From NCBI RefSeq assembly GCF_000739915.1, contig NZ_BBJT01000004.1, forward strand, positions 310,001 to 374,000: DNA of 64,000 bases. Reading direction: 5' to 3'. Positions 428 to 52,988 of the stretch are shown here, one piece after another. The translations under genes and the position numbers were made by a program. Source of the DNA: Paenibacillus chitinolyticus NBRC 15660. GTDB taxonomy: Bacteria > Bacillota > Bacilli > Paenibacillales > NBRC-103111. The notes under the pieces were generated by a model, which saw nothing but the letters and a program-made list of their open reading frames with translations, was not told the DNA's origin and did no database searches. Each line of letters opens with the position of its first letter. Position 1 is the first letter of the stretch.

Positions 428-2362
428 TTATCTGGACTTGTTGGCGATATCCTCTTGAATGAGGCCGACCACATGCGCCAGGCTGTGAACGCCCAGGTCG
501 CCTTCGCCGCGTTTGCGGACGGACAAAGTGCCGGAGTTCATTTCGTTCTCCCCTACAACGAGCATGTACGGCGTCTTCTCCAGCTGCGCTTCGCGGATCT
601 TGTAGCCGAGCTTCTCGTTGCGGTTGTCCGCTTCCGCCCGGATTCCGGCCGCAAGCAGCTTCTCCGTCACGTCATTGGCATACGCCTCGTAAGACGGCGA
701 TACCGGAATGACTTTGGCCTGTACCGGCATCAGCCAGGTCGGCAGCGCTCCAGCGTAGTTTTCCAGAAGGAATGCCGTCATCCGTTCCATCGTGGAAATA
801 ATGCCGCGGTGGATAACGACCGGACGGTGCTTCTGGCCGTCTTCGCCGATGTATTCAAGCTCGAAACGCTCCGGCAGCAGGAAGTCCAGCTGAACGGTGG
901 AGAGCGTTTCTTCTTTCTTCAGCGCCGTGCGGATCTGAACGTCCAGCTTCGGACCGTAGAAAGCCGCTTCCCCTTCCGCTTCGTAGAACGGCAGGTTCAT
1001 CTCTTCCACAACCTCGCGGAGCATGCGCTGGGACATTTCCCACATCTCGTCGTTCGGGAAATATTTCTCCGTATCCTTCGGGTCCCGGTAGGACAGACGG
1101 AAACGGTAGTCCTTAATGCCGAAATCCTCGTACACATGACGGATCAGGTTGATAACGCGGGCGAACTCTTCCTTGATCTGATCGGGACGGCAGAAAATAT
1201 GGGCGTCGTTCAGCGTCATCGCGCGTACGCGGTGCAGGCCGGTCAAGGCGCCGGACATCTCGTAGCGGTGCATCATGCCCAGCTCCGCAATACGGACCGG
1301 CAGCTCGCGGTAGCTGCGCATGTCGCTCTTATACACCATCATATGATGCGGGCAGTTCATCGGACGGAGAACGAGTTCCTCGTTGTCCATGACCATTTTC
1401 GGGAACATGTCCTCGTGGTAGTGATCCCAGTGTCCGCTTGTTTTGTACAGCTCCACGTTAGCGAGTACCGGCGTATAGACGTGCTGATAGCCCAGGCGCT
1501 CTTCCAGATCGACAATGTAGCGCTCCATAACGCGGCGTACTTTGGCTCCGGCAGGAAGCCAGATCGGCAGCCCTTGGCCGACTTCTTTGGAGAACGTGAA
1601 CATTTTCAGCTCCCGGCCCAGCTTACGGTGGTCGCGTTTCTTCGCTTCTTCAAGCAGATGGAGATGCTCGTCCAATTCCGCTTTCTTAGGGAATGCCGTT
1701 CCGTAGATGCGCTGAAGCATCTTGTTCTTGGAATCCCCGCGCCAGTATGCGCCCGCAACGCTTAGCAGCTTGAAGGCCTTGATTTTGCCGGTGGAGGGCA
1801 GATGAGGTCCGCGGCAGAGGTCGAAAAACTCGCCCTGATCGTAAATGGTCAGCACGGAGTCTTCCGGCAGGTCGCGGATCAGCTCCAGCTTAAGCGGATC
1901 GCCGAGCTCCTCGAAAATCGCGATCGCTTCTTCACGGCTGACCACACGGCGGACGATCGGCAGGTTTTCCTGAACGATCTTGGCCATTTCTTTCTCGATC
2001 TTCGTCAGATCTTCCGGCGTCAATGGATTTTCGATATCGATATCGTAGTAGAACCCGTCTTCGATGACAGGACCGATGCCGAGCTTCACGGCACGTTCCC
2101 CGTACAGACGCTTGATCGCCTGGGCCATCAAGTGGGCGGTGCTGTGGCGCAGCACTTCGACTCCCTCTTCGGAATCCAGCGTTACGATTTTAAGCTCGGC
2201 ATCCTCTTCGATCGGAGCGTTCAAATCGACCTGGCGGCCGTTCACTACGCCGATCACCGCATTTTTTTTGAGGCCCGTGGAAATGGATTCCGCTACCTGC
2301 TCAACCGTTGTACCCGGGGCGTATTCTTTCACGGAACCGTCCGGAAAAGTTAATTTAATCAT
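428..2362 (-). CDS. thrS: Threonyl-tRNA synthetase
   Basis: ThrRS charges tRNA-Thr with threonine using ATP. The 644 residues match the usual bacterial length and domain order. They begin with a TGS domain ([18 protein letters not shown]), followed by the editing (SAD) domain with [15 protein letters not shown] near residue 73. Next is the class II catalytic core with the motif [14 protein letters not shown], whose Cys and two His bind the catalytic zinc, and motif 3 in [16 protein letters not shown]-terminal anticodon-binding domain ([17 protein letters not shown]) ends the protein. The ATG at 2362 follows AGGAGCTGACGAATC. The gene stands alone downstream of a T-box leader, so uncharged tRNA-Thr should control it. 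Confidence 0.97.
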
Positions 2363-2700
2363 GATTCGTCAGCTCCTTAGCTCTATAAATTTCAAAAAAA
2401 AGAGCGCAAAAAAGCACACACATCCCGAAAGGGACGAGTGCGCTCGACTCGTGGTTCCACCCTCATTCGATTCACCGCCTGGATTTATGCGGACGAATCC
2501 TCATTCAGCATCCGGTAACGGGAATGAATCGGCTAAGCTTACTTCCGGACCGGACGTCTTGCGTCCGCTCTTGTTCGGTTTCCGCTTTGCGGCTCTCGAA
2601 GGGGTGAACATACCGTACATCTGCAGGGGATTTCAGCCGGGGCCCCATTCTCTGGCAGCAGTGTGACAAGCGGTTCGTGTCTTCGGTCAAAGCCTTTGAT
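2363..2700 (-). promoter_or_regulatory. T-box leader of thrS
   Basis: On the minus strand the leader contains the T-box core AGGGTGGAACCACG (2450-2463). A strong terminator hairpin follows (stem arms 2414-2426 and 2431-2443, loop TTTC) with T6 at 2408-2413, then the thrS ribosome site. The length of about 340 bases from the promoter fits stem I plus the antiterminator/terminator. I could not place the specifier codon with confidence. By family knowledge, uncharged tRNA-Thr pairing stabilises the antiterminator. Confidence 0.88.
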
Positions 2701-2706
2701 TCCCTC

Positions 2707-2735
2707 ATTATAAGCCTGCCGCGGAATCAGGTCAA
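2707..2735 (-). promoter_or_regulatory. SigA promoter of thrS
   Basis: On the minus strand TTGACC (2735-2730) and TATAAT (2712-2707) are 17 bases apart, close to consensus. The -35 overlaps the stop codon region of ytxC, so thrS has its own promoter and does not depend on read-through. Confidence 0.8.
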
Positions 2736-3701
2736 GGGGGACGGGGACCCGCTGTCCGAGTTCCCCGCCAGCTTCGTCCGGCATATGCCGCAGTAGGAGC
2801 AGATGGTCGCGCGGGACTCGAAAATCTGCATAATCGTGCGGATAACGGGCAGATCCGGTTCCCGCGTGTGAATATAAATCGTCGCCGGCGATACCGAAAT
2901 CAGCGTCGAGACGATCATATCTTCGAAGCTGATATCCTTCTCGATCATTTCCAGCGTAAAGGACGCTTCCATCTTACTGGTGTCGATCGGCTGCATATGT
3001 TCATCCAGAATTGTAAATTCGGCGCCTTCCTTATGTACCAAATGAGCTGCTGCCGTCTTCGTTTCCTGGATATAGACGAAATACTGGAGCAGAGAAATAA
3101 ATTCCTGATACTGCTGGTCCATTACATATTCGTCGATGGCGTACTCGACGACCTCTTTCAGCTCGTCCATGTATTCCTGCAGCCGGAACGTAATGAAACC
3201 CGGCAAGTTTACGGACTGCCCTTCCTGCAGCAGAGCTTTCAAAGGCTCGCTGATTTTGCCCGCCCGGAGCTTCATGCCGTCGATCGGCCCCCAGTCCAGG
3301 TAATCGTCCAAGCCGTATTCGCCCGCGGCGCTTCTCCCGTCTTCCTCACCGTTCAGGAATTGGCGGCAGTAACGGCCGATTTTAGCCGCTTCTTCAAGAT
3401 CTTTATAATGAAAGGTATTCACCAGCAGCTTCCGGATCAGCCTCTCTTCTTCACCCTCCACGATTTGCTCGGCGGCTGCGGCTGCGGCTGCTTCGATAAC
3501 GGGCTCGGACTTCGGCTGATGCTTTTTGCCGCCTATTGTTCCCTCTATCCGCAGCATCGTGTACTGTTCCAACGTGTCACGGACGACCCGGAGCGGGTTA
3601 CCTTCCTGATTCAGAAGCGCTAGGCGGCTTTCTATCCGGCTTTGCAGCGCAGAAATATCAAACACGGCGGAATTGTTGAATACAAACTGTACGATAGACA
3701 T
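2727..3701 (-). CDS. ytxC: YtxC-like sporulation-associated protein
   Basis: This 324-residue protein resembles the YtxC family (PF08812), which in Bacillus also lies directly upstream of thrS. That synteny is the main support. The sequence is soluble, acidic and helix-rich, with an Ala run (EAAAAAAAEQ) near residue 70 that looks like a flexible linker. The C-terminus carries a Cys pair (CSYCGIC) that could bind metal. The ATG at 3701 follows AGGAAGGAGTGAGCCC, an excellent ribosome site, so upstream in-frame starts are unlikely. The family is called a putative sporulation protein but its biochemical role is unknown. Confidence 0.8.
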   Translation of the reverse strand: MSIVQFVFNNSAVFDISALQSRIESRLALLNQEGNPLRVVRDTLEQYTMLRIEGTIGGKKHQPKSEPVIEAAAAAAAEQIVEGEEERLIRKLLVNTFHYKDLEEAAKIGRYCRQFLNGEEDGRSAAGEYGLDDYLDWGPIDGMKLRAGKISEPLKALLQEGQSVNLPGFITFRLQEYMDELKEVVEYAIDEYVMDQQYQEFISLLQYFVYIQETKTAAAHLVHKEGAEFTILDEHMQPIDTSKMEASFTLEMIEKDISFEDMIVSTLISVSPATIYIHTREPDLPVIRTIMQIFESRATICSYCGICRTKLAGNSDSGSPSPLT

Positions 3702-3820
3702 GGGCTCACTCCTTCCTGACGCTGAATTCCTTCTAAAAGTATATGGTCGGCCGGAGGCGGATATACAACCAACTCTTGACATGTCCAAAGGCCGTTCAAT
3801 TCGGGAAAATAAGGCCGATC

Positions 3821-3875
3821 TTAAACATTCCTTAAGAAATTCAGCGCGGTTTTGTTAAGAACAACCTCCTATAAT
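3821..3875 (+). promoter_or_regulatory. Tandem TTAA repeats and -10 element upstream of the two-component genes
   Basis: TTAAAC (3821), TTAAGA (3832) and TTAAGA (3855) are spaced 11 and 23 bases apart, which is one and about two helical turns. They are followed by TATAAT at 3870-3875. Tandem hexamers at 11-base spacing are the usual binding pattern of OmpR/PhoP-family regulators, and no good -35 sits at the right place. I infer an activator-dependent, perhaps autoregulated promoter. The rest of 3702-4048 shows no gene. Confidence 0.4.
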
Positions 3876-4048
3876 AATCTCTATGGAAGCTTGTTGATGG
3901 AGGTGCCGCTCCCCGAATAACGGAATTGCCAATCCCTTCTTCCTGTGCTAACGTCGCAATAGCTTGTTTTATACGAATGGAATCAAGGGAAAGCAGGGTC
4001 CGGTACACGGCGGCATCCGTTTTCCGGCACATAAAGGAGCGCATAGTC

Positions 4049-4750
4049 ATGGGAAAAGAAACGATTCTGGTCGTAGACAATGAAAAAGAAATCGTGGAAC
4101 TCATCCGTATTTATTTAACCAACGAGGGGTATGAAACGGTTTCGGCCGGGGACGGTCTGGAAGCCTTGGATGTGCTGAAAAGCCGGGAGGTCGATCTGAT
4201 TATCCTCGACATTATGATGCCCCGTATGGATGGCGTCCAGGCGTGCCTGGAAATCCGGAAGGAGAAAAACATGCCCATCCTGATGCTCTCCGCAAAAAGC
4301 GAGGATATGGACAAAATTCTCGGATTAACCGCCGGGGCGGACGATTATTTAACGAAACCGTTTAATCCGCTCGAGCTGATGGCACGGGTGAAATCCCAAC
4401 TGCGCCGGTATAAAAGATTAAACGCCCCCATGCCATCCGAAACGCTTTCAAACCGTATCGAATTGGACGATCTGATTATTGATACGGCTACGCACGAAGT
4501 TCATGTGGAGGGGCGGCCGGTCAAACTGACTCCCCGGGAATTTTCAATCCTGGAGCTGCTGGGGCGCAACCGGGGAATCGTGTTCAGTACGGAGCGCATT
4601 TATGAGACGGTCTGGAACACCCCGTACTTCGAATCGGACAACACCGTCATGGTGCACATCCGCAAAATCCGGGAAAAAGTGGAGAGCAACCCAAGGCAGC
4701 CGAAATACATCAAAACCGTTTGGGGGGTAGGCTACAAAATTGAAACCTAA
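4049..4750 (+). CDS. OmpR-family response regulator, VanR-like
   Basis: This 233-residue regulator has a receiver domain and a winged-helix DNA-binding domain. Visible active-site residues are the acidic pair in VVDNEKE (D10 and E12), the phospho-acceptor D54 in LIILDIMMP, and K103 in DYLTKPF. The C-terminal part (LTPREFSILELLGRNRG ... MVHIRKIREK ... KTVWGVGYKIE) is a typical trans_reg_C domain. The receiver is most like VanR. The ATG at 4049 follows AAAGGAGC. The stop overlaps the TTG start of the sensor kinase by 11 bases, so the two are translationally coupled. The signal and targets are unknown; nothing next door looks like a vancomycin-resistance gene. Confidence 0.9.
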   Translation: MGKETILVVDNEKEIVELIRIYLTNEGYETVSAGDGLEALDVLKSREVDLIILDIMMPRMDGVQACLEIRKEKNMPILMLSAKSEDMDKILGLTAGADDYLTKPFNPLELMARVKSQLRRYKRLNAPMPSETLSNRIELDDLIIDTATHEVHVEGRPVKLTPREFSILELLGRNRGIVFSTERIYETVWNTPYFESDNTVMVHIRKIREKVESNPRQPKYIKTVWGVGYKIET

Positions 4751-6581
4751 TCGAAGCCGGAAGTTCGGGAAGATTTGGGGACTGCTGGTGCGCGGCATCG
4801 TTCGTCCCGTTATTTTGTGCAAGCAAAATGTGATGCGCAGCCTGCGAATGCAGCTTATCCTGGCGTTCGCTTTATGTATTGGGGTCGCGATCGCGGCCGG
4901 GGGCCTAGTGTCCGAGCTTACTAAATCTTGGCGGACGGCAAGCAGCATCTCTTATATTCAGGACAAAGAGATTACGGCAAACCAGGTTCGCCGTCTTGTG
5001 GAACGCCTCGAACAGATTCAAAAGTACGGCGGCGATACCGACAGGTACCCTGCCGCTAAAGAGGAGTCGGCCTTGAAGCACTTGCCAAGCACCGATCAGG
5101 AGCTCCAAAGCCAGAAGGAGACCGAAGATACCGGTACCGGTATAGGCTCCGGACCGGATCGGCAGGCGGACTCCGGAAGCTCTGCCTCTTCCACCGCACC
5201 GAAATCGGCTGCCCCGTCTCCAATGCCGGAATCCGCCGTCCCGGATGGGACGGGCACGAACGGCAAAGCGGCTCCGGAGCCCGCCGGTCCAGGCGCAGCG
5301 GAAGCGGACAGCAAAAAAACGCCGACACCGGGCAAGGCCGCCGAGCAGCCGGCGCCCTCCTTTTTTCCGGTAAATCCGGCGGATATTCAGTCTCTTCTGG
5401 ACGATGAAGCCGACAGGCCCGGAAGAAAATCGCTCTATATTATCGATGCAGCCGGCAAGGTACTGTACCGAACAAAAGGAAGTGGAGAAAGCCGGTTCGA
5501 TATCCCGCAGCTGGTCGGCAGCGCCATGGATTCAGAAGGCACATTCCGGGAGAGTCACGAAAACCGCGAGTTCACGTTCATGTACCCGATTCTTTTAAAC
5601 GGCACTCAATCATTTCTCGTAGCCAAGGCGGTTCCCGAAGCTCAGATCTCTTATTACGAGCAGGATACCTCTCTTCCCCTGATCGCCGGGATCGCTACCT
5701 TCCTGGGACTCTTCTATTGGATTACCCGGCGGAAAATGCAGCTTATCGAAGAAATGGCGCAGGGACTTGTCCAAATGTCCCAAGGTAATCTCGCTCATCG
5801 GGTTCCCGAAAGAAGTCATGACGAGCTCGGTGTGCTCGCCGGACATATGAACTCCATGGCTTTCGATCTTCAGCATTCTCTGGAAGAAGAGCGCAAATCT
5901 CAGCGGCTGAAAAACGAATTGATCACCAATGTTTCCCACGATCTCCGCACGCCCCTTACGCTCATCATCGGTTACCTTCGGCTTTTGAAGGACAAGGATT
6001 ACAAAGACGAGGAGCAGGCGGCGAATTATATGCAAATCGCTTACGGGCGCGCGGAAAAACTTAAGATTCTCATTGACGAGCTGTTCGAATTCAGCCGGAT
6101 GACGAACGAGGGCGTGCCGCTCGCCAAACAATCGGTCTGCGTAAACGACCTGATCTACCAGCTTTCGGAGGAATATATCACGATCGCGGAACAGAACGGC
6201 CTCACCCTCCGCCTCGTTCTCCCGCCTATGCGGCTGTTCGTCTCCATGGACCCGGATCAGATGATCCGCGTCTTCGAAAATCTGCTCACGAATGCGGTCA
6301 AATACAGCCCCAAACCGAGCACCATCGAGGTGATCGTTCAGGAGGAAGGACGCGACGTTAAAGTGACGGTGATCAACGAAGGTGATCTATCGGAAACGGA
6401 GGAGCTCGATCGCCTGTTTGACCGGTTTTACCGGATGGATGCCGCACGTTCCTCCGATACAGGCGGCTCCGGGTTAGGCCTCGCCATTGCCCGCAGCATC
6501 GTCGAAGCTCATGACGGCCGCATTTGGGCGGAGAACCGCGGCAAATCGATTATGTTCCATGTGAAACTTCGCCGGTATTAA
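4740..6581 (+). CDS. Sensor histidine kinase with Pro/Ser/Thr/Ala-rich extracellular insert
   Basis: The partner kinase of the upstream regulator has 613 residues. A first membrane helix lies at about 39-58. A large extracytoplasmic loop follows, with a low-complexity Ser/Pro/Ala/Gly/Thr stretch at about 124-206 and then a folded part (YIIDAAGKVLYRT, about 233-300). A second helix lies at about 311-328, then HAMP (329-382). The H-box is NVSHDLRTPLTLIIGY with phospho-acceptor H400, and the HATPase has N box FENLLTNAVKYSP and G boxes (GGSGLGLAI). The start is a TTG at 4740 inside the regulator gene; an ATG at 4833 has no clear ribosome site. The low-complexity insert may span the cell wall, which is an inference. 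A bidirectional terminator follows. Confidence 0.9.
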   Translation: MKPNRSRKFGKIWGLLVRGIVRPVILCKQNVMRSLRMQLILAFALCIGVAIAAGGLVSELTKSWRTASSISYIQDKEITANQVRRLVERLEQIQKYGGDTDRYPAAKEESALKHLPSTDQELQSQKETEDTGTGIGSGPDRQADSGSSASSTAPKSAAPSPMPESAVPDGTGTNGKAAPEPAGPGAAEADSKKTPTPGKAAEQPAPSFFPVNPADIQSLLDDEADRPGRKSLYIIDAAGKVLYRTKGSGESRFDIPQLVGSAMDSEGTFRESHENREFTFMYPILLNGTQSFLVAKAVPEAQISYYEQDTSLPLIAGIATFLGLFYWITRRKMQLIEEMAQGLVQMSQGNLAHRVPERSHDELGVLAGHMNSMAFDLQHSLEEERKSQRLKNELITNVSHDLRTPLTLIIGYLRLLKDKDYKDEEQAANYMQIAYGRAEKLKILIDELFEFSRMTNEGVPLAKQSVCVNDLIYQLSEEYITIAEQNGLTLRLVLPPMRLFVSMDPDQMIRVFENLLTNAVKYSPKPSTIEVIVQEEGRDVKVTVINEGDLSETEELDRLFDRFYRMDAARSSDTGGSGLGLAIARSIVEAHDGRIWAENRGKSIMFHVKLRRY

Positions 6582-18854: not shown

Positions 18855-19244
18855 CTAAATAATCAAACTGCTCATGGAGAACGCGACACCGACATAGATC
18901 GCGCACAGCATAATACCTACTGCCACGTTGCCTTCCTTAAGCTGCTCGGACAGTTTAATGCCCGGCGTCAGCAAGTCGAAAACGAAGTAAGTGAGAAGCA
19001 GGCAGACGTAACCGATCGCAAACCACATCGCCATATGAAGGATCGAAGAATTCGTGTAAGCCGCGACACCCAGAATAATGGCCGTTCCGAAAAATTTCCC
19101 GCCCAGGACCAGACCTACCGCCTTATTGCCTTTGCGGAGCTCCTCCATGTCGTTAAACGGCGTAATCCAGTTAAAAATGACCATGCCAATAACCTGTAAA
19201 GCCACAATGACAATAAAGCTGATTAAAATATTCAAGGCGATCAT
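18855..19244 (-). CDS. DUF350 (YjfL-type) membrane protein, first copy
   Basis: The 129-residue polytopic membrane protein is built from two DUF350 repeats. Each has a hydrophobic segment, an F-x-x-x-TP turn, a charged helix and a glycine-rich helix (FNWITPFNDMEELRKGNKAVGL; FDLLTPGIKLSEQLKEGNVAVGI). Four membrane helices are likely. DUF350 is the family of Escherichia coli YjfL, which sits with a PspA homologue and a glutathionylspermidine-synthase-like gene. Here it is the last gene of such an operon. The ATG at 19244 overlaps the preceding stop as ATGA. The molecular role is unknown. Confidence 0.88.
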   Translation of the reverse strand: MIALNILISFIVIVALQVIGMVIFNWITPFNDMEELRKGNKAVGLVLGGKFFGTAIILGVAAYTNSSILHMAMWFAIGYVCLLLTYFVFDLLTPGIKLSEQLKEGNVAVGIMLCAIYVGVAFSMSSLII

Positions 19245-19918
19245 TCCGCCCACCCCCTGAACTTGGACATGGCCAAATCATAATTCGAGAAATCGTGCAC
19301 TTCTTCAAGGACGATTTTCACGCGTTTCTTGTCTTTAATCGCCGTATAGCGCTCATCGGAAATCGGCTGCTTCACTTTATGACCCGATGGCATAGAGACG
19401 ACGGCGAAGTCCCGGTGTTTATCCCCGTACTGCGTCTTGTAGACGCCGATGAGATCGACCTCGGTTTGAATTTCGGTTTTGAGCTGGCTCATGTCCGTCT
19501 TTGCCGCACTTTCGGTTTTAAATGTTTTCAGCGGTGTCCAACCCGAAAGCTTGACATCGTTCTTCCCGTCATCTCCGGTTTTCATTTCCGCGGTCATAAA
19601 GCTCAGCACCCAAACCTGATCTCCCGTTGCGAAATTGCCGTCGTTAGGCAGCATATCGTTGTTCGGAAGCAGCGTCATGTCGCCCCCGATGAGATCCCCT
19701 ACTTTGGCCTGCTCGACTTTATAATCCCACGGAACTACGCTGGATTCGGTTGTAGCCCCGCCGGATGCGGTCGCGCCGCCGCTCGTGTTTTTCTTATCGG
19801 AGCATGCCCCGATTAGTCCGAAAACGAGGAGAAGGGCAAGCGCCGAGAAAATTCCGATCATGACCCGGCTCCGCTTCTTGCCTGATCCGTATCTGCTGTT
19901 CATCGCAGGTCTGCTCAT
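19241..19918 (-). CDS. Putative lipoprotein of the ATP-grasp/DUF350 operon
   Basis: The 225 residues begin with a basic tail, a hydrophobic segment (about 19-38) and a lipobox GLIGAC with the acylated Cys at 39. A Ser/Gly/Thr linker follows, then a folded domain of about 165 residues (WDYKVEQAKVGDLIGGDMTLLP ... VWVLSFMTAEM ... HKVKQPISDERYTAIKDKKR). I do not recognise the domain. In position it corresponds loosely to YjfK of the enterobacterial cluster, but I cannot show homology by eye. It overlaps both neighbours by ATGA, so it is tightly coupled to the ligase and the DUF350 protein. Confidence 0.75.
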   Translation of the reverse strand: MSRPAMNSRYGSGKKRSRVMIGIFSALALLLVFGLIGACSDKKNTSGGATASGGATTESSVVPWDYKVEQAKVGDLIGGDMTLLPNNDMLPNDGNFATGDQVWVLSFMTAEMKTGDDGKNDVKLSGWTPLKTFKTESAAKTDMSQLKTEIQTEVDLIGVYKTQYGDKHRDFAVVSMPSGHKVKQPISDERYTAIKDKKRVKIVLEEVHDFSNYDLAMSKFRGWAE

Positions 19919-21120
19919 TTCTGTTCAACTCCTATCGCCACAAAATGACTCGCATTGCCGGTAATCAAACCTCCGGCACGGCCCAGAAGACCGCACGGCT
20001 GTCCGTCGATGACAAACATTCCGGTAAGCAGCCGATATTCCCCATGGGTGAGTGAAATTTGCGGCAAGTCCGCCCGCGCCTGATACACATTCGTAAAAAG
20101 AGTGCTTGTATCGAAGCCGTCCTCATCCTGGATATCCATTTCGCCCGAAACGCCGTACATCCGCACGGAGCCACCTTCGCGGCCGAACATCGATTTGGAC
20201 ACGTAACTGCTTTCCAAAACCGGCTGATTGTAAGTCGGCAGCATATAACGCTCGATGGTCCGGTGCTCTCCCGGCGTAAACAACGGGGCCATCATCTCAT
20301 GGAGCCCCCAGATCACGGCCTGTAATCCCTTGGATTGCAAAATTATCGCGTGAAGAGGATTAAACAGCCGCAAATGACCGTTCTCAATGGAGTACGCGAG
20401 AGCTTCCCCTCCGTCGTCCACACCCATCCATTCTTTCGGATAGAGGGCAAACATGCTTCGGATTTCCCGGTTCTCCCCGTCTTTGAGAATGCCTTCGTCC
20501 ACCCACAGATCCAGACAATCCACCGGCCGGACTTCAAGTCCGCTGTGACGGATCAACATATCGATCGTGCCCGAATCTTCCAAGTGTTTGCCGTAATCTA
20601 TGCATGCGGCAGCCTCCGGCATCTCTTCCGACCAAGCTTGGCGGACGAGATCCGGCATTGCCGTATTGGGACTGTGACCGCCGTACCGGCTGCACATCCA
20701 CGGAGTGACAACGGATGCCTCCACGTATCCGGTCGGGGTATCGGCATTCAGCTCCAGAAGCTTGATATCCCCTTCCTGAGATATGCTGAAGTCAAACCGC
20801 GCATAGCGGCTGAGAAGCCCCTTCGGTCCCGGTTCCAGTCCATCCAGACCGTCCCAAAGCACCTCCGGGATGCTCAGCATGTCGTACAAATCCCGCCGGC
20901 CGATAACAAACCGTGCCCCTTTATCGAAAATGTCCCACAAGAGTCTCGACGCTTGGTTCAGCTCTTCGTAAACGCCGCGGTCCATAAGAACAAGCTGGTC
21001 GATCCAGTACTGCTCCTGCTCCAGATCGGCCCATGTAAAACCCATCCGGCCCAGCTCGGCTACATAAGCCTCGCGGTCCTTATGCGGCTGTCCGAGTACC
21101 CTGAATGTCCGGCTGTCCAT
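19915..21120 (-). CDS. Glutathionylspermidine-synthase-like ATP-grasp ligase (YjfC/YgiC type)
   Basis: The 401 residues match the GSP_synth family, an ATP-grasp-like fold that joins a carboxylate to an amine using ATP. Visible key residues are R108 and D110 (ARFDFSI), E123 and N125 (LLELNADTPTGYVE), the Lys/Gly loop SKSMFGREGGSV (about 308-319, K309), and the C-terminal GLLGRAGGLITGNASHF. There is no N-terminal amidase (CHAP) domain, as in Escherichia coli YjfC and YgiC but unlike Gsp. The true substrates of YjfC/YgiC are not known; a peptide or polyamine tag on an envelope molecule has been proposed for such clusters. It overlaps both neighbours (TGATG upstream, ATGA downstream). Confidence 0.88.
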   Translation of the reverse strand: MDSRTFRVLGQPHKDREAYVAELGRMGFTWADLEQEQYWIDQLVLMDRGVYEELNQASRLLWDIFDKGARFVIGRRDLYDMLSIPEVLWDGLDGLEPGPKGLLSRYARFDFSISQEGDIKLLELNADTPTGYVEASVVTPWMCSRYGGHSPNTAMPDLVRQAWSEEMPEAAACIDYGKHLEDSGTIDMLIRHSGLEVRPVDCLDLWVDEGILKDGENREIRSMFALYPKEWMGVDDGGEALAYSIENGHLRLFNPLHAIILQSKGLQAVIWGLHEMMAPLFTPGEHRTIERYMLPTYNQPVLESSYVSKSMFGREGGSVRMYGVSGEMDIQDEDGFDTSTLFTNVYQARADLPQISLTHGEYRLLTGMFVIDGQPCGLLGRAGGLITGNASHFVAIGVEQK

Positions 21121-22082
21121 CAGCTTCCGCTGGAAGAGCTGCCCGACGAGCTGAATCCGCCCGACTTGCCGCCGATGCTGCCGGACGACGAGGACGAGGA
21201 TTTACTCGATGAACCGGAGGATACGGAGCCTGAAGAGCTGGATGTTCCGGATTTCGTGCTTGAGGAGCCGCTGCTCGTCGAGCTCTTGCCGGTCGAAGAA
21301 GATCCTGTTGTGGACGAGCTCTTGCTCGAATTGTTCCGCGAATTAATCGTCGATTTGCTGTTAAAAGCTCCCGTTGTGTTCGAGGTTTTTGGCTTAACCG
21401 TCGAATTCGCGGTTTGCTTGTTCTGAAACTTCGTCGAATCGTACGTCGGCACCGAATAAGGCTTCTTCGTCCGGTAATCGTAAGACGGCCGTGAACTGGA
21501 CCAGCCGCTCGACGAGTAGGAGCCGCCGCTGTTGAAGATCAGATGATACAGCATCAGGTCGGTCCAGTTGAGGCCGTTGTTGTACACGATCGGAGCGGCT
21601 GTGCCGACTCCCGCCCCCGTGCCGCCCGTACCTACGCCCGCGGAAGGAGTAGGAGTCGGGGTCGCTCCCGCTCCCGGTTTATCCAGCTGTTCCGGGAGCG
21701 GAATGTTCCAGTCCGCGCTCGGATCGAAATAAGTTTTGACATCCTCGTTGGACCATTCGATGATTTGCGGCTCGGCCGCTTTGCTCTCGGCATAAACCGC
21801 CGGAACCAGCAGCAGGTTGGCCGCCAGCACGACGCCGAGCGACGTGTTCAGCACACGAAGCGGCTTCGGGGTACGCGTCCTGCGGGCGGCACGCGCCTGC
21901 GCCGCTTTGTCCGCGTCAGCCGCCCGTGCGGCAAGCACCGCTTCGGGTGAGCCTGCTTCAGGCGCACCCGCCGCTTCCGCTGCAACCGCTTCCGAAGCGC
22001 TCTCGCCCGCCGCAGCGTTGAAGTTTGCATTCTCTTCCGTATCGTTAAGCCCGCCTGCGTTGTTGTTCAGATTGTCGTTCAT
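21120..22082 (-). CDS. Ser/Gly-rich membrane or exported protein paired with the ATP-grasp ligase
   Basis: The 320 residues show an acidic, Asn/Ala-rich N-terminus of about 70 residues and a basic patch (RRTRTPKPLR). A hydrophobic segment (about 78-98) follows, ending in VYAES, a possible signal-peptidase site. Next come a Pro/Gly/Thr linker and a short hydrophobic motif (NWTDLMLYHLIF). The last 115 residues or so are more than half Ser, Gly, Thr and Lys. Escherichia coli pairs its YgiC/YjfC ligases with Ser/Gly-rich YgiB/YjfM proteins, so this is a candidate ligase substrate; that is an inference from position. The ATG at 22082 follows TTGGAGGGACTTGCA; an upstream ATG at 22115 lacks a site. 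Confidence 0.78.
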   Translation of the reverse strand: MNDNLNNNAGGLNDTEENANFNAAAGESASEAVAAEAAGAPEAGSPEAVLAARAADADKAAQARAARRTRTPKPLRVLNTSLGVVLAANLLLVPAVYAESKAAEPQIIEWSNEDVKTYFDPSADWNIPLPEQLDKPGAGATPTPTPSAGVGTGGTGAGVGTAAPIVYNNGLNWTDLMLYHLIFNSGGSYSSSGWSSSRPSYDYRTKKPYSVPTYDSTKFQNKQTANSTVKPKTSNTTGAFNSKSTINSRNNSSKSSSTTGSSSTGKSSTSSGSSSTKSGTSSSSGSVSSGSSSKSSSSSSGSIGGKSGGFSSSGSSSSGS

Positions 22083-22107
22083 TGCAAGTCCCTCCAATTC
22101 TGACTTC

Positions 22108-22326
22108 TTACTCACTCGCTTGCTTATTAATTGGCAGTACCAGCACTTCCAGTTTCTGATTCTCTACATCGAGTCTTCCTTCGATCATTTCGTACTCTTT
22201 GCCGCCGACATACAGAAAATTGGCATGCTCCATCATCGCCAACATCGTCGCATTCCAATTACGCTCATCAATCGTCTTCAATTCGCCGTTTTCCAATTTT
22301 TCAATAATCAATACGTTAGCTTCCAT
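22108..22326 (-). CDS. Hypothetical 72-residue protein, first gene of the ECF-promoter operon
   Basis: Small soluble protein with a beta-rich look (ANVLIIEKLENGELKTIDERNWNA ... FLYVGGKEYEMIEGRLDVENQKLEVLVLPI). No recognised domain. The ATG at 22326 sits seven bases after GAAAGGATG; an ATG at 22335 is too close to that site. It lies 26 bases before the Ser/Gly-rich protein and about 40 bases after the expected transcription start, so it is the promoter-proximal member of the operon. Confidence 0.65.
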   Translation of the reverse strand: MEANVLIIEKLENGELKTIDERNWNATMLAMMEHANFLYVGGKEYEMIEGRLDVENQKLEVLVLPINKQASE

Positions 22327-22374
22327 CGTTTTCATCCTTTCAAAATGCGGTTAGGAAATTATCATGCTATTTCT

Positions 22375-22400
22375 AACGTTTGAGCGGCGATTTTGTTTCA
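22375..22400 (-). promoter_or_regulatory. ECF (SigW-type) promoter of the ATP-grasp/DUF350 operon
   Basis: On the minus strand TGAAAC (22400-22395) and CGTT (22378-22375) are separated by exactly 16 bases. The Bacillus SigW consensus is TGAAAC-N16-CGTA, so only the last base differs. It lies 49 bases before the first start codon. The rest of 22401-22616 holds no gene I can support; a short CCGGC-AA-GCCGG hairpin near 22565 may help to end ypcP. Confidence 0.7.
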
Positions 22401-52229: not shown

Positions 52230-52904
52230 TTATTGTTTTTTTTCAGCCAGCTTCGCTTTCATGGCCGCAAGCTCGTCGTCGATTCCGTCGCTCTTGCCGA
52301 GCTGGTCGAGTTCGTCGTCCAGGCTCTTGCCTTTGGAGCGGAGCTCGCCGCTTGCTTGCGCTTCGGCTTCAAGCTGAAGCACCTTCTCGGACATGCGGTC
52401 GAAGCCTTTCGCCGCGTTGTCGGTTCCGAAACCGGACATCGCCTGGTTGATGTGCTTCTGGGCTTTCGCCGCTTCGGCACGGGCGATCAGAAGGTCTTTC
52501 TTGTTTTTCATTTTCGAAAATTCGTCTTTCATATCGGAGAGCTGATTGCGGAGCTGATCCGCATTCGTTTTGGCGATGTCGTACTGACGCTTCATTTCGT
52601 CGAAACGGGTCTGGTGCTCCTTCTTGTCTTCCAGCGCGCGGCGGGCGAGATCTTCATTGCCCTGCTCCAGAGCTTTCATGGCCTGTTCCGTACGCTTGCC
52701 GACCATTTCTTCCGCTTCTTCGTACTGCTGTTTGAATTTCTTCTCGATCGCGATCTGCTTGGCTACCGCCACTTCCGCTTCCTGAATGTCCTGCTCCATG
52801 TCTCTGAGGAACTGGTTCAGCATTTTTACCGGATCTTCCGCTTTATCGAGTAAATCGTTCATCGAAGCCATCGTCAAGTCTCTAAGTCTTTTAAAAATTC
52901 CCAT
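52230..52904 (-). CDS. pspA: PspA/IM30-family membrane-stress protein
   Basis: The 224 residues match PspA (phage shock protein A; LiaH/YjfJ/Vipp1 superfamily). An N-terminal amphipathic helix (MGIFKRLRDLTMASMNDLLDKAEDP) is followed by an extended coiled coil. Family motifs are PVKMLNQFLRDMEQDIQEAE and VAVAKQIAIEKKFKQQ. PspA binds stressed membranes and forms rod- or ring-shaped ESCRT-III-like polymers. The ATG at 52904 follows GGGAGGGAATTCCAA. A perfect SigW-type promoter sits 59 bases upstream; pspA of Bacillus subtilis is also a SigW target. Confidence 0.93.
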   Translation of the reverse strand: MGIFKRLRDLTMASMNDLLDKAEDPVKMLNQFLRDMEQDIQEAEVAVAKQIAIEKKFKQQYEEAEEMVGKRTEQAMKALEQGNEDLARRALEDKKEHQTRFDEMKRQYDIAKTNADQLRNQLSDMKDEFSKMKNKKDLLIARAEAAKAQKHINQAMSGFGTDNAAKGFDRMSEKVLQLEAEAQASGELRSKGKSLDDELDQLGKSDGIDDELAAMKAKLAEKKQ

Positions 52905-52962: not shown

Positions 52963-52988
52963 TACGGGGGACCTTCAAGAACGTTTCA
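52963..52988 (-). promoter_or_regulatory. Perfect SigW-type ECF promoter of the pspA operon
   Basis: On the minus strand TGAAAC (52988-52983) and CGTA (52966-52963) are separated by exactly 16 bases, identical to the SigW consensus TGAAAC-N16-CGTA. It lies between mutS2 and pspA. Confidence 0.85.

Follow-up and report, generated by a model that had tools for sequence, protein, structure and literature searches.

Which acid and which amine would be joined by an ATP-grasp ligase encoded beside an exported Ser/Gly-rich protein is the question raised by a five-gene locus of Paenibacillus chitinolyticus NBRC 15660, found in a 64,000-nucleotide stretch of contig NZ_BBJT01000004.1 that was analyzed as a whole (hereafter the window). 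The locus is one operon of five co-directional open reading frames (ORFs), G1-G2-G3-G4-G5, occupying window positions 18855-22335 of the minus strand by the ORF reading of the window and lying behind an extracytoplasmic function (ECF)-type promoter; G2 is the Ser/Gly-rich protein, G3 the ligase, which is related to the glutathionylspermidine synthetase GspS, and G5 a DUF350 membrane protein. We propose, with a probability of roughly one half, that the operon is a C-terminal protein-amidation module in which G3 joins a polyamine to the tail of G2 before export. A first-pass annotation of this DNA had guessed that the ligase attaches a small amine or peptide to a substrate, possibly the Ser/Gly-rich protein or a membrane component; for a small amine and the Ser/Gly-rich protein, the conserved tail motif and polyamine pocket described below lend that guess support at the level of sequence.

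The ligase and its neighbors were compared in four sets totalling 100 loci, all with different ligases and with 97 different partner ends; the ligase cores of four pairs share 95% identity or more. Set A comprises the window's own locus and 20 related loci from a scan of genome contigs, all Paenibacillus or Cohnella (n=21); set B, 20 stretches whose ligases are 58-65% identical, taken from genomes within the order; set C, 40 stretches with more distant Bacillota ligases, hand-picked and not random among the matches listed; and set D, 19 plasmid stretches from Bacillota, Pseudomonadota, Deinococcota, Cyanobacteriota and Actinomycetota, chosen for diversity among 100 listed of the 151 records matching at E 1e-3. 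The partner was taken in each locus as the Gly/Ser-richest ORF adjoining the ligase, and the background as 617 non-adjacent ORFs of at least 150 residues from the same loci.

The feature that recurs among these partners is their C-terminal end. G2 itself has a conserved EWSNEDVK..FDP core and a Ser/Gly/Thr linker that differs in both length and sequence among G2 homologues. Their ends, by contrast, are conserved, reading SGSIGGKSSGF...GG or GS in most of set A and having an IGG.SS...GFGG-like form in set B. The Escherichia coli DUF1190 proteins YgiB and YjfM have tails that contain RGGFG and RGGYG, respectively, and end in GG (YjfM, RGGYGRSSSARGHWGG), and plasmid-borne partners end in SRGGFGRSSARFGGGG (Indioceanicola), SRGGFGGAVSSGG (Acinetobacter), RVSGFGSFRAGGASS (Nostoc), SRGGFGGTAKGGSGS (Pseudarthrobacter) and SGLGSGKSSAGS (Geobacillus). 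The motif [GS]-hydrophobic-G falls within the last 30 residues of the partner in 95/100 loci against 40.2 expected from shuffled tails (21, 19, 38 and 17 in sets A to D vs 6.9, 8.2, 17.9 and 7.2), and the strict form G-hydrophobic-G in 68/100 against 16.4 (2, 14, 36 and 16 vs 2.0, 3.1, 7.2 and 4.1). Over the last 40 residues, Gly and Ser make up a fraction of 0.4 or more in 89/100 partners and 1/617 background ORFs, and the motif together with a Gly+Ser fraction of at least 0.3 marks 94/100 loci; in the background the loose motif alone occurs in 49 ORFs, and motif and Gly/Ser-rich end together in none. Within the final 30 residues, Asp and Glu contribute 0, 0, 2.0 and 1.9% in sets A to D, against a background of 11.5% taken from a wider set of 656 ORFs that includes ORFs adjoining ligases in other loci, a depletion that leaves the C-terminal carboxyl as nearly the sole carboxylate on the tail. 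The last residue is Gly, Ser or Ala in 95/100 loci.

A tail partner is present in 97/100 ligase loci from five phyla. Of the six loci that miss the combined count of motif and Gly+Ser fraction, three do have such a partner: L099, with the motif just beyond the last 30 residues, L163, with a DUF1190 tail protein downstream of the ligase, and L112, with the tail protein about 2 kb further upstream. Because a hydrophobic N-terminal stretch is nearly universal (21/21, 20/20, 37/40 and 18/19 in sets A to D), the partners are most likely exported; a lipobox-like motif occurs in 0, 0, 21 and 16 of them, and G2 begins with a signal-peptide-like stretch ending AVYA-ES, as judged by eye. The kinship to the E. 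coli yjf gene set claimed for this locus is supported for the ligase and the DUF350 protein but not for G2 as a relative of YjfM/YgiB by descent: G2 has no PF06693 match, and comparison of its profile with DUF1190 gave an hhalign probability of 8.5% for the full protein and 0.3% for the core. Since the two families do not align, the tail is common to them without detectable common descent of the bodies. A search of plasmids with YjfM added only close copies. No description of the tail or of its ligation was found in the open-access literature searched, although an earlier one may exist.

The ligase offers a matching pocket. G3 is a GSP_synth protein (PF03738, 173.9 bits vs a cut-off of 29.3, E=7.2e-51) in which no other domain and no amidase domain was found, as the first-pass annotation had it, and it matches YjfC in the Protein Data Bank (7uk6) at E=8.9e-21; its solved relatives are YjfC (7uk6, 7uk7) and YgiC (7uk8, 7uka). 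It has in common with GspSA those residues of the synthetase domain that serve ATP, Mg, the carboxylate and spermidine, but scores 46.1 bits against a cut-off of 882 in the GspSA equivalog model and, lacking also the amidase domain, falls outside that group. In an alignment of 81 ligases (the own locus, sets B-D minus L143, YjfC and YgiC), GspSA residues R316, D318, E330, K498, K533, R538 and R598 are invariant in 81/81 and N332 is kept in 80. The spermidine-side acids E341 and E391 are kept in 81/81. E392 is replaced by Asp in 80/81 and S337 by Thr in 77. The corresponding residues of G3 are R108, D110, E123, N125, K264, K309, R314 and R381 for ATP, Mg and carboxylate, and E134 and E181 on the spermidine side. 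In a model of TryS, Glu355 and Glu407 touch the spermidine moiety, according to the part of the source consulted (PMC3581523), and by numbering offset these probably correspond to E341 and E391. GspSA acids D387 and D389, by contrast with these residues, are not conserved in the 81-ligase alignment, and the acid substrate therefore probably differs from glutathione.

By domain and active-site residues G3 is of the YgiC/YjfC type, and ligase activity on a peptide and spermidine is predicted for it. The statement that no reaction is known for the E. coli relatives is outdated, as RefSeq names YgiC and YjfC peptide-spermidine ligases; the two are termed recently characterized peptidylpolyamine synthetases in the passage seen of one source (PMC12568646), and YgiC is described as devoid of glutathionylspermidine synthase activity in that of another (PMC12506659). 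G3 has no export signal and looks cytosolic.

Linkage of the ligase to its neighbors is strict among close relatives. The five genes stand in order in 20/20 related Paenibacillus/Cohnella loci, models of G1, G2, G4 and G5 matched in 20/20 set B stretches, and all five genes are present in 41/41 loci of sets A and B. Of 198 genomes sampled across the order, 172 have the ligase, while G2, the close-type ligase (match E below 1e-150) and G4 occupy an identical 94 genomes and are adjacent on the same strand in 94/94, a co-occurrence far beyond chance. Close relatives thus do not show a ligase mostly separated from the other genes, an outcome that the first-pass annotation would have counted against its reading, whereas more distant loci show it in part: the hidden Markov model search of set C found a G2 or G4 homologue in 0/40 loci and one weak G1 match (E=7e-3), although a different tail protein is usually there and DUF350 matched in 39/40 stretches, lying upstream of the ligase in L144. 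DUF350 is annotated in 3/16 annotated stretches of set D (L147, L150 and L157), so that it accompanies the ligase less closely there than the tail protein does.

Phages carry the same association, with the ligase matching in 78 phage records (E 1e-3) and a Gly/Ser-tail protein present in 5/5 phage loci inspected, directly upstream of the ligase in Motura, Aeromonas 4_4572 and Bacillus FADO, and separated from it by one gene in AS4 and by two in Acj61. The order in Achromobacter phage Motura is homospermidine synthase by annotation, Gly/Ser-tail lipoprotein, ligase, one gene and DUF350 (E=4.3e-33). The lipoprotein ends in VRGGFGSTGSSFSAGG and matches DUF1190 just under the cut-off of 22 bits (20.9 bits, E=4.9e-4). 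The synthase, lipoprotein, ligase and DUF350 genes lie nearly side by side at positions 1297-4890 of this locus, which comes near to the module in portable form. The portion seen of a study of hss-gss clusters in phages and beta-Proteobacteria, in which a polyamine synthesis gene stands beside a GspS-like ligase, includes Motura, identifies its homospermidine synthase as a homologue and suggests glutathionylhomospermidine as the product (PMC9992855); the tail lipoprotein between the two Motura genes offers an alternative acid substrate.

Tail amidation is the simplest account of these observations. An ATP-grasp ligase requires both a carboxylate and an amine; here the pocket has retained the amine side of GspS but lacks two acids of its substrate pocket, and the flexible, conserved tail presents its C-terminus as the only or nearly only carboxylate. 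In the mechanism that we propose, G3 would phosphorylate the G2 tail at its C-terminal carboxylate with ATP; a polyamine, most likely spermidine, would then displace the phosphate through its primary amine, and G2, its tail end now positively charged, would go on to be exported. G4 and the DUF350 protein could serve, in the membrane or outside the cell, as partners that exploit or monitor the tail once it is modified, and the charged tail might, as a guess, bind anionic wall or membrane polymers or signal through DUF350. An envelope role, like those of G1, G4 and DUF350, we infer. Extended beyond this operon, and held with a little less confidence than the reading of the operon itself, the proposal would be that short GspS-like ligases, in bacteria as in phages, join polyamines to protein C-termini. 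Each would amidate an exported protein encoded with it at a Gly/Ser-rich "[GS]-hydrophobic-G ... small residue-COOH" tail, and a portable tail tag on unrelated proteins would thereby constitute a widespread envelope modification, phage-borne in places and once accompanied by polyamine synthesis.

The amine could be made by the organism itself. In the genome that holds the window, AdoMetDC matched twice and spermidine synthase strongly (E=2.2e-72). Across the 198 genomes AdoMetDC matched in 166, of which 19 matched weakly (E about 1e-12 to 1e-15), 18 of those also having nspC, the gene of the carboxyspermidine route. The remaining 32 all have nspC, one by a partial match (G502), as do all 31 ligase-positive genomes without PF02675 (again G502 partially). 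Co-occurrence of ligase and AdoMetDC was dropped as a test of spermidine use, since a spermidine-type route is present in every sampled genome; these data permit spermidine use and do not prove it.

Several observations weigh against tail amidation. Choosing the Gly/Ser-richest adjoining ORF as partner favors the observed outcome, the loci are a non-random choice that includes many relatives, and some background ORFs are not genes. No tail partner lies within the stretch in L120, L143 and L162 (3/100 loci). A strict Gly-Gly end was rejected as the signal because the tails are not all Gly-ended, with GS, SS, AS and other ends occurring. The amine route does not discriminate either, being found in 26/26 ligase-negative as well as 172/172 ligase-positive genomes. 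As the ligase looks cytosolic and G2 exported, ligation would have to precede or accompany export, and the putative reaction on G2 is read from the conservation of tail and pocket.

The same evidence bears on other explanations. If the tails were alike merely as a by-product of low-complexity Gly/Ser composition, with no bearing on the ligase, then easy matching of such ends would account for them, and shuffling alone does yield 40.2 motif matches per 100; in set A, the window's own group, the strict form is at chance (2/21 vs 2.0), the motif there being S-I-G-G, which also counts against our proposal. The excess of both motif forms over all sets and the near absence of Gly/Ser-rich ends from the background nevertheless make this explanation very improbable. 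A small-molecule product, with the ligase conjugating a polyamine to a peptide or metabolite while the tail protein acts as a separate surface protein of the same response, has more to recommend it: GspSA, the best-known relative, works on a small peptide according to the part consulted of PMC6272389, and the hss-gss clusters have been taken, in the portion seen of PMC9992855, to indicate a potential for glutathionylhomospermidine. We consider it unlikely all the same, as it leaves unexplained both the similar tails on unrelated neighbors of the ligase and the loss of D387 and D389.

The tail might instead remain unmodified and serve as a regulatory peptide or localization tag that docks on the ligase or DUF350, the ligase acting on another protein or a lipid. 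The position of [GS]-hydrophobic-G, often some residues before the end as in a binding motif, and the variable last residue would suit docking, but the depletion of Asp and Glu and the small terminal residue fit an enzyme seeking one carboxylate, and GspS activates the C-terminal carboxylate of its peptide; we regard docking as improbable. Barely less probable than docking is the same tail chemistry with an amine other than spermidine, such as putrescine, homospermidine or another. Motura pairs its ligase with a homospermidine synthase and the pocket acids would suit several polyamines, against which stand an AdoMetDC or nspC match in every sampled genome and the naming of the E. coli relatives for spermidine. 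Amidation of the tail by a polyamine, probably spermidine, is thus the reading that we retain for this operon.

The promoter places the operon under likely ECF control, as the first-pass annotation proposed. A scan of both strands of the window found TGAAAC-N16-CGT[AT] at two sites only, 22400-22375 and 52988. Upstream of G1, TGAAAC-N16-CGTT recurs in 18/21 set A loci (shuffle expectation 0.02 per set) and TGAAAC-N16-CGTN in 12/20 set B loci (11 CGTA, 1 CGTT; expectation 0.00), a conservation of TGAAAC-N16-CGT of the kind expected of an ECF sigma regulon; the exact N16 form is missing in 3/21 and 8/20 loci, the set A exceptions being L005, with a 17-nt spacer, and L017 and L019, with no site. 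Neither PspA (Pfam) nor a YjfI/CesT-like or YjfK gene was found among the five operon genes, which accordingly do not form a PspA-type yjf operon. About 30 kb away, however, pspA and the only other DUF350 gene of the genome (51715-52988, minus strand) lie behind TGAAAC-N16-CGTA, so that the two DUF350 genes may share one sigma regulon; this second promoter-like site suggests joint control of the operon with PspA. An ECF sigma factor would then turn the set on, probably together with pspA-DUF350, possibly in a response to envelope stress.

Table 1. Coordinates of the operon, its promoter and possible regulon partners in the window.
Feature	Position	Strand	Evidence
G1, 75-residue protein, no family, probably cytosolic	22108..22335	-	ORF, no Pfam, predicted mixed alpha/beta fold
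G2, exported Ser/Gly-rich protein, 320 residues from ATG at 22082	21120..22082	-	ORF, alignment
G2 conserved C-terminal tail SGSIGGKSGGFSSSGSSSSGS-COOH, proposed ligation site (candidate)	21123..21185	-	Alignment, tail counts
G3, GspS-like ATP-grasp ligase, 401 residues, YjfC/YgiC type, without amidase domain	19915..21120	-	PF03738, PDB 7uk6 match, active-site residues
G4, N-terminally anchored protein (lipobox-like here), conserved beta-rich domain	19241..19918	-	Alignment, model
G5, DUF350 membrane protein, 129 residues from ATG at 19244	18855..19244	-	PF03994 E=8.8e-34
ECF-sigma type promoter TGAAAC-N16-CGTT	22375..22400	-	Sequence, conservation across loci
Second ECF-type site TGAAAC-N16-CGTA, upstream of pspA-DUF350 pair	52963..52988	-	Motif scan
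PspA, possible regulon partner	52230..52904	-	PF04012 E=2.9e-56
Second DUF350 of genome	51715..52170	-	DUF350 search

The overlapping or nearly touching arrangement reported for the five genes is borne out by the junctions, which read TGATG at G2/G3, ATGA at G3/G4 and, given the ATG start of G5 (a GTG at 19253 being the alternative), ATGA at G4/G5. The start of G2 is most likely the tabulated ATG, preceded by GGAGGG, rather than an overlapping GTG at 22115, which leaves a spacing of 25 nt between G1 and G2. A Pfam search matched no family to G1, G2 or G4, whereas G5 is, as annotated, a DUF350 protein of the YjfL family (116.9 bits vs a cut-off of 26). The AlphaFold2 model of G1 has a mean predicted local distance difference test score (pLDDT) of 88, and assignment of its fold by Foldseek was dropped, the best match having only E=4.7e-3. 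The model of G4 has a mean pLDDT of 76.7, with the folded part mostly above 80, and a search with it returned no match at E<=0.001. G4 had been called a lipoprotein, which holds for part of the family: among the N-termini of 20 aligned sequences, read by eye, a lipobox-like Cys is present in 8, Cys is absent from 9 and Cys stands in another context in 3, so that lipidation is not a conserved feature. In L009 (7110-7822) the G4 gene is split over two overlapping ORFs by a frameshift or sequencing error.

The first gene differs in many set C loci, where it encodes a protein of about 150 residues. Two types of this protein, MARLEYRL... and ...RKLVDAT..., were seen in many distant loci (L105-L141), and the two tested had no Pfam match over the cut-off; G1 aligns weakly with the end of the MARLEYRL... 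type (hhalign E=2.9e-4, probability 41%), which offers weak grounds for taking it as a shortened version of that first gene. Weak PF03738 matches (<45 bits) in other Bacillota (L044-L053), in frames mostly of about 440 residues, apparently belong to another subfamily and mostly lie beside a second protein of about 430-450 residues, with no tail partner or DUF350 among the ORFs listed. GSP_synth matches also occur in frames of 820-880 residues in L034, L035 and L039, two separate matches per frame in L034 and L039 giving the appearance of a doubled domain.

Among the known systems closest to the operon are the E. coli YjfM-YjfC and YgiB-YgiC pairs, which have the same ligase family with the same active-site and polyamine-pocket residues and a tail-bearing partner encoded just upstream of the ligase, the yjf operon also having a DUF350 protein (YjfL). 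The Paenibacillus operon differs from them in that G2 is not detectably homologous to DUF1190, PspA, YjfI and YjfK are absent from the operon, G1 and G4 belong to no family and the promoter is of the ECF type. A survey of phage-shock-protein operons describes some in which PspA occurs with YjfL/DUF350, a DUF1190 lipoprotein and an ATP-grasp ligase related to GspS, as well as variants without PspA, and the part of it consulted mentions neither the tail motif, a ligation substrate nor the five-gene form of Paenibacillus (PMC11237479).

The conserved tail names a candidate substrate for the ligase in each genome, where the literature consulted, as far as its text was available, does not state a physiological substrate for YgiC or YjfC, and in this operon of soil bacteria the pairing of the ligase with a conserved-tail partner gives the enzyme a likely and testable target. 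If the proposal is correct, C-terminal polyamine modification of envelope proteins would extend from Firmicutes to cyanobacteria and to phages, and would tie polyamines to ECF stress control and to the DUF350 family, which is poorly understood.

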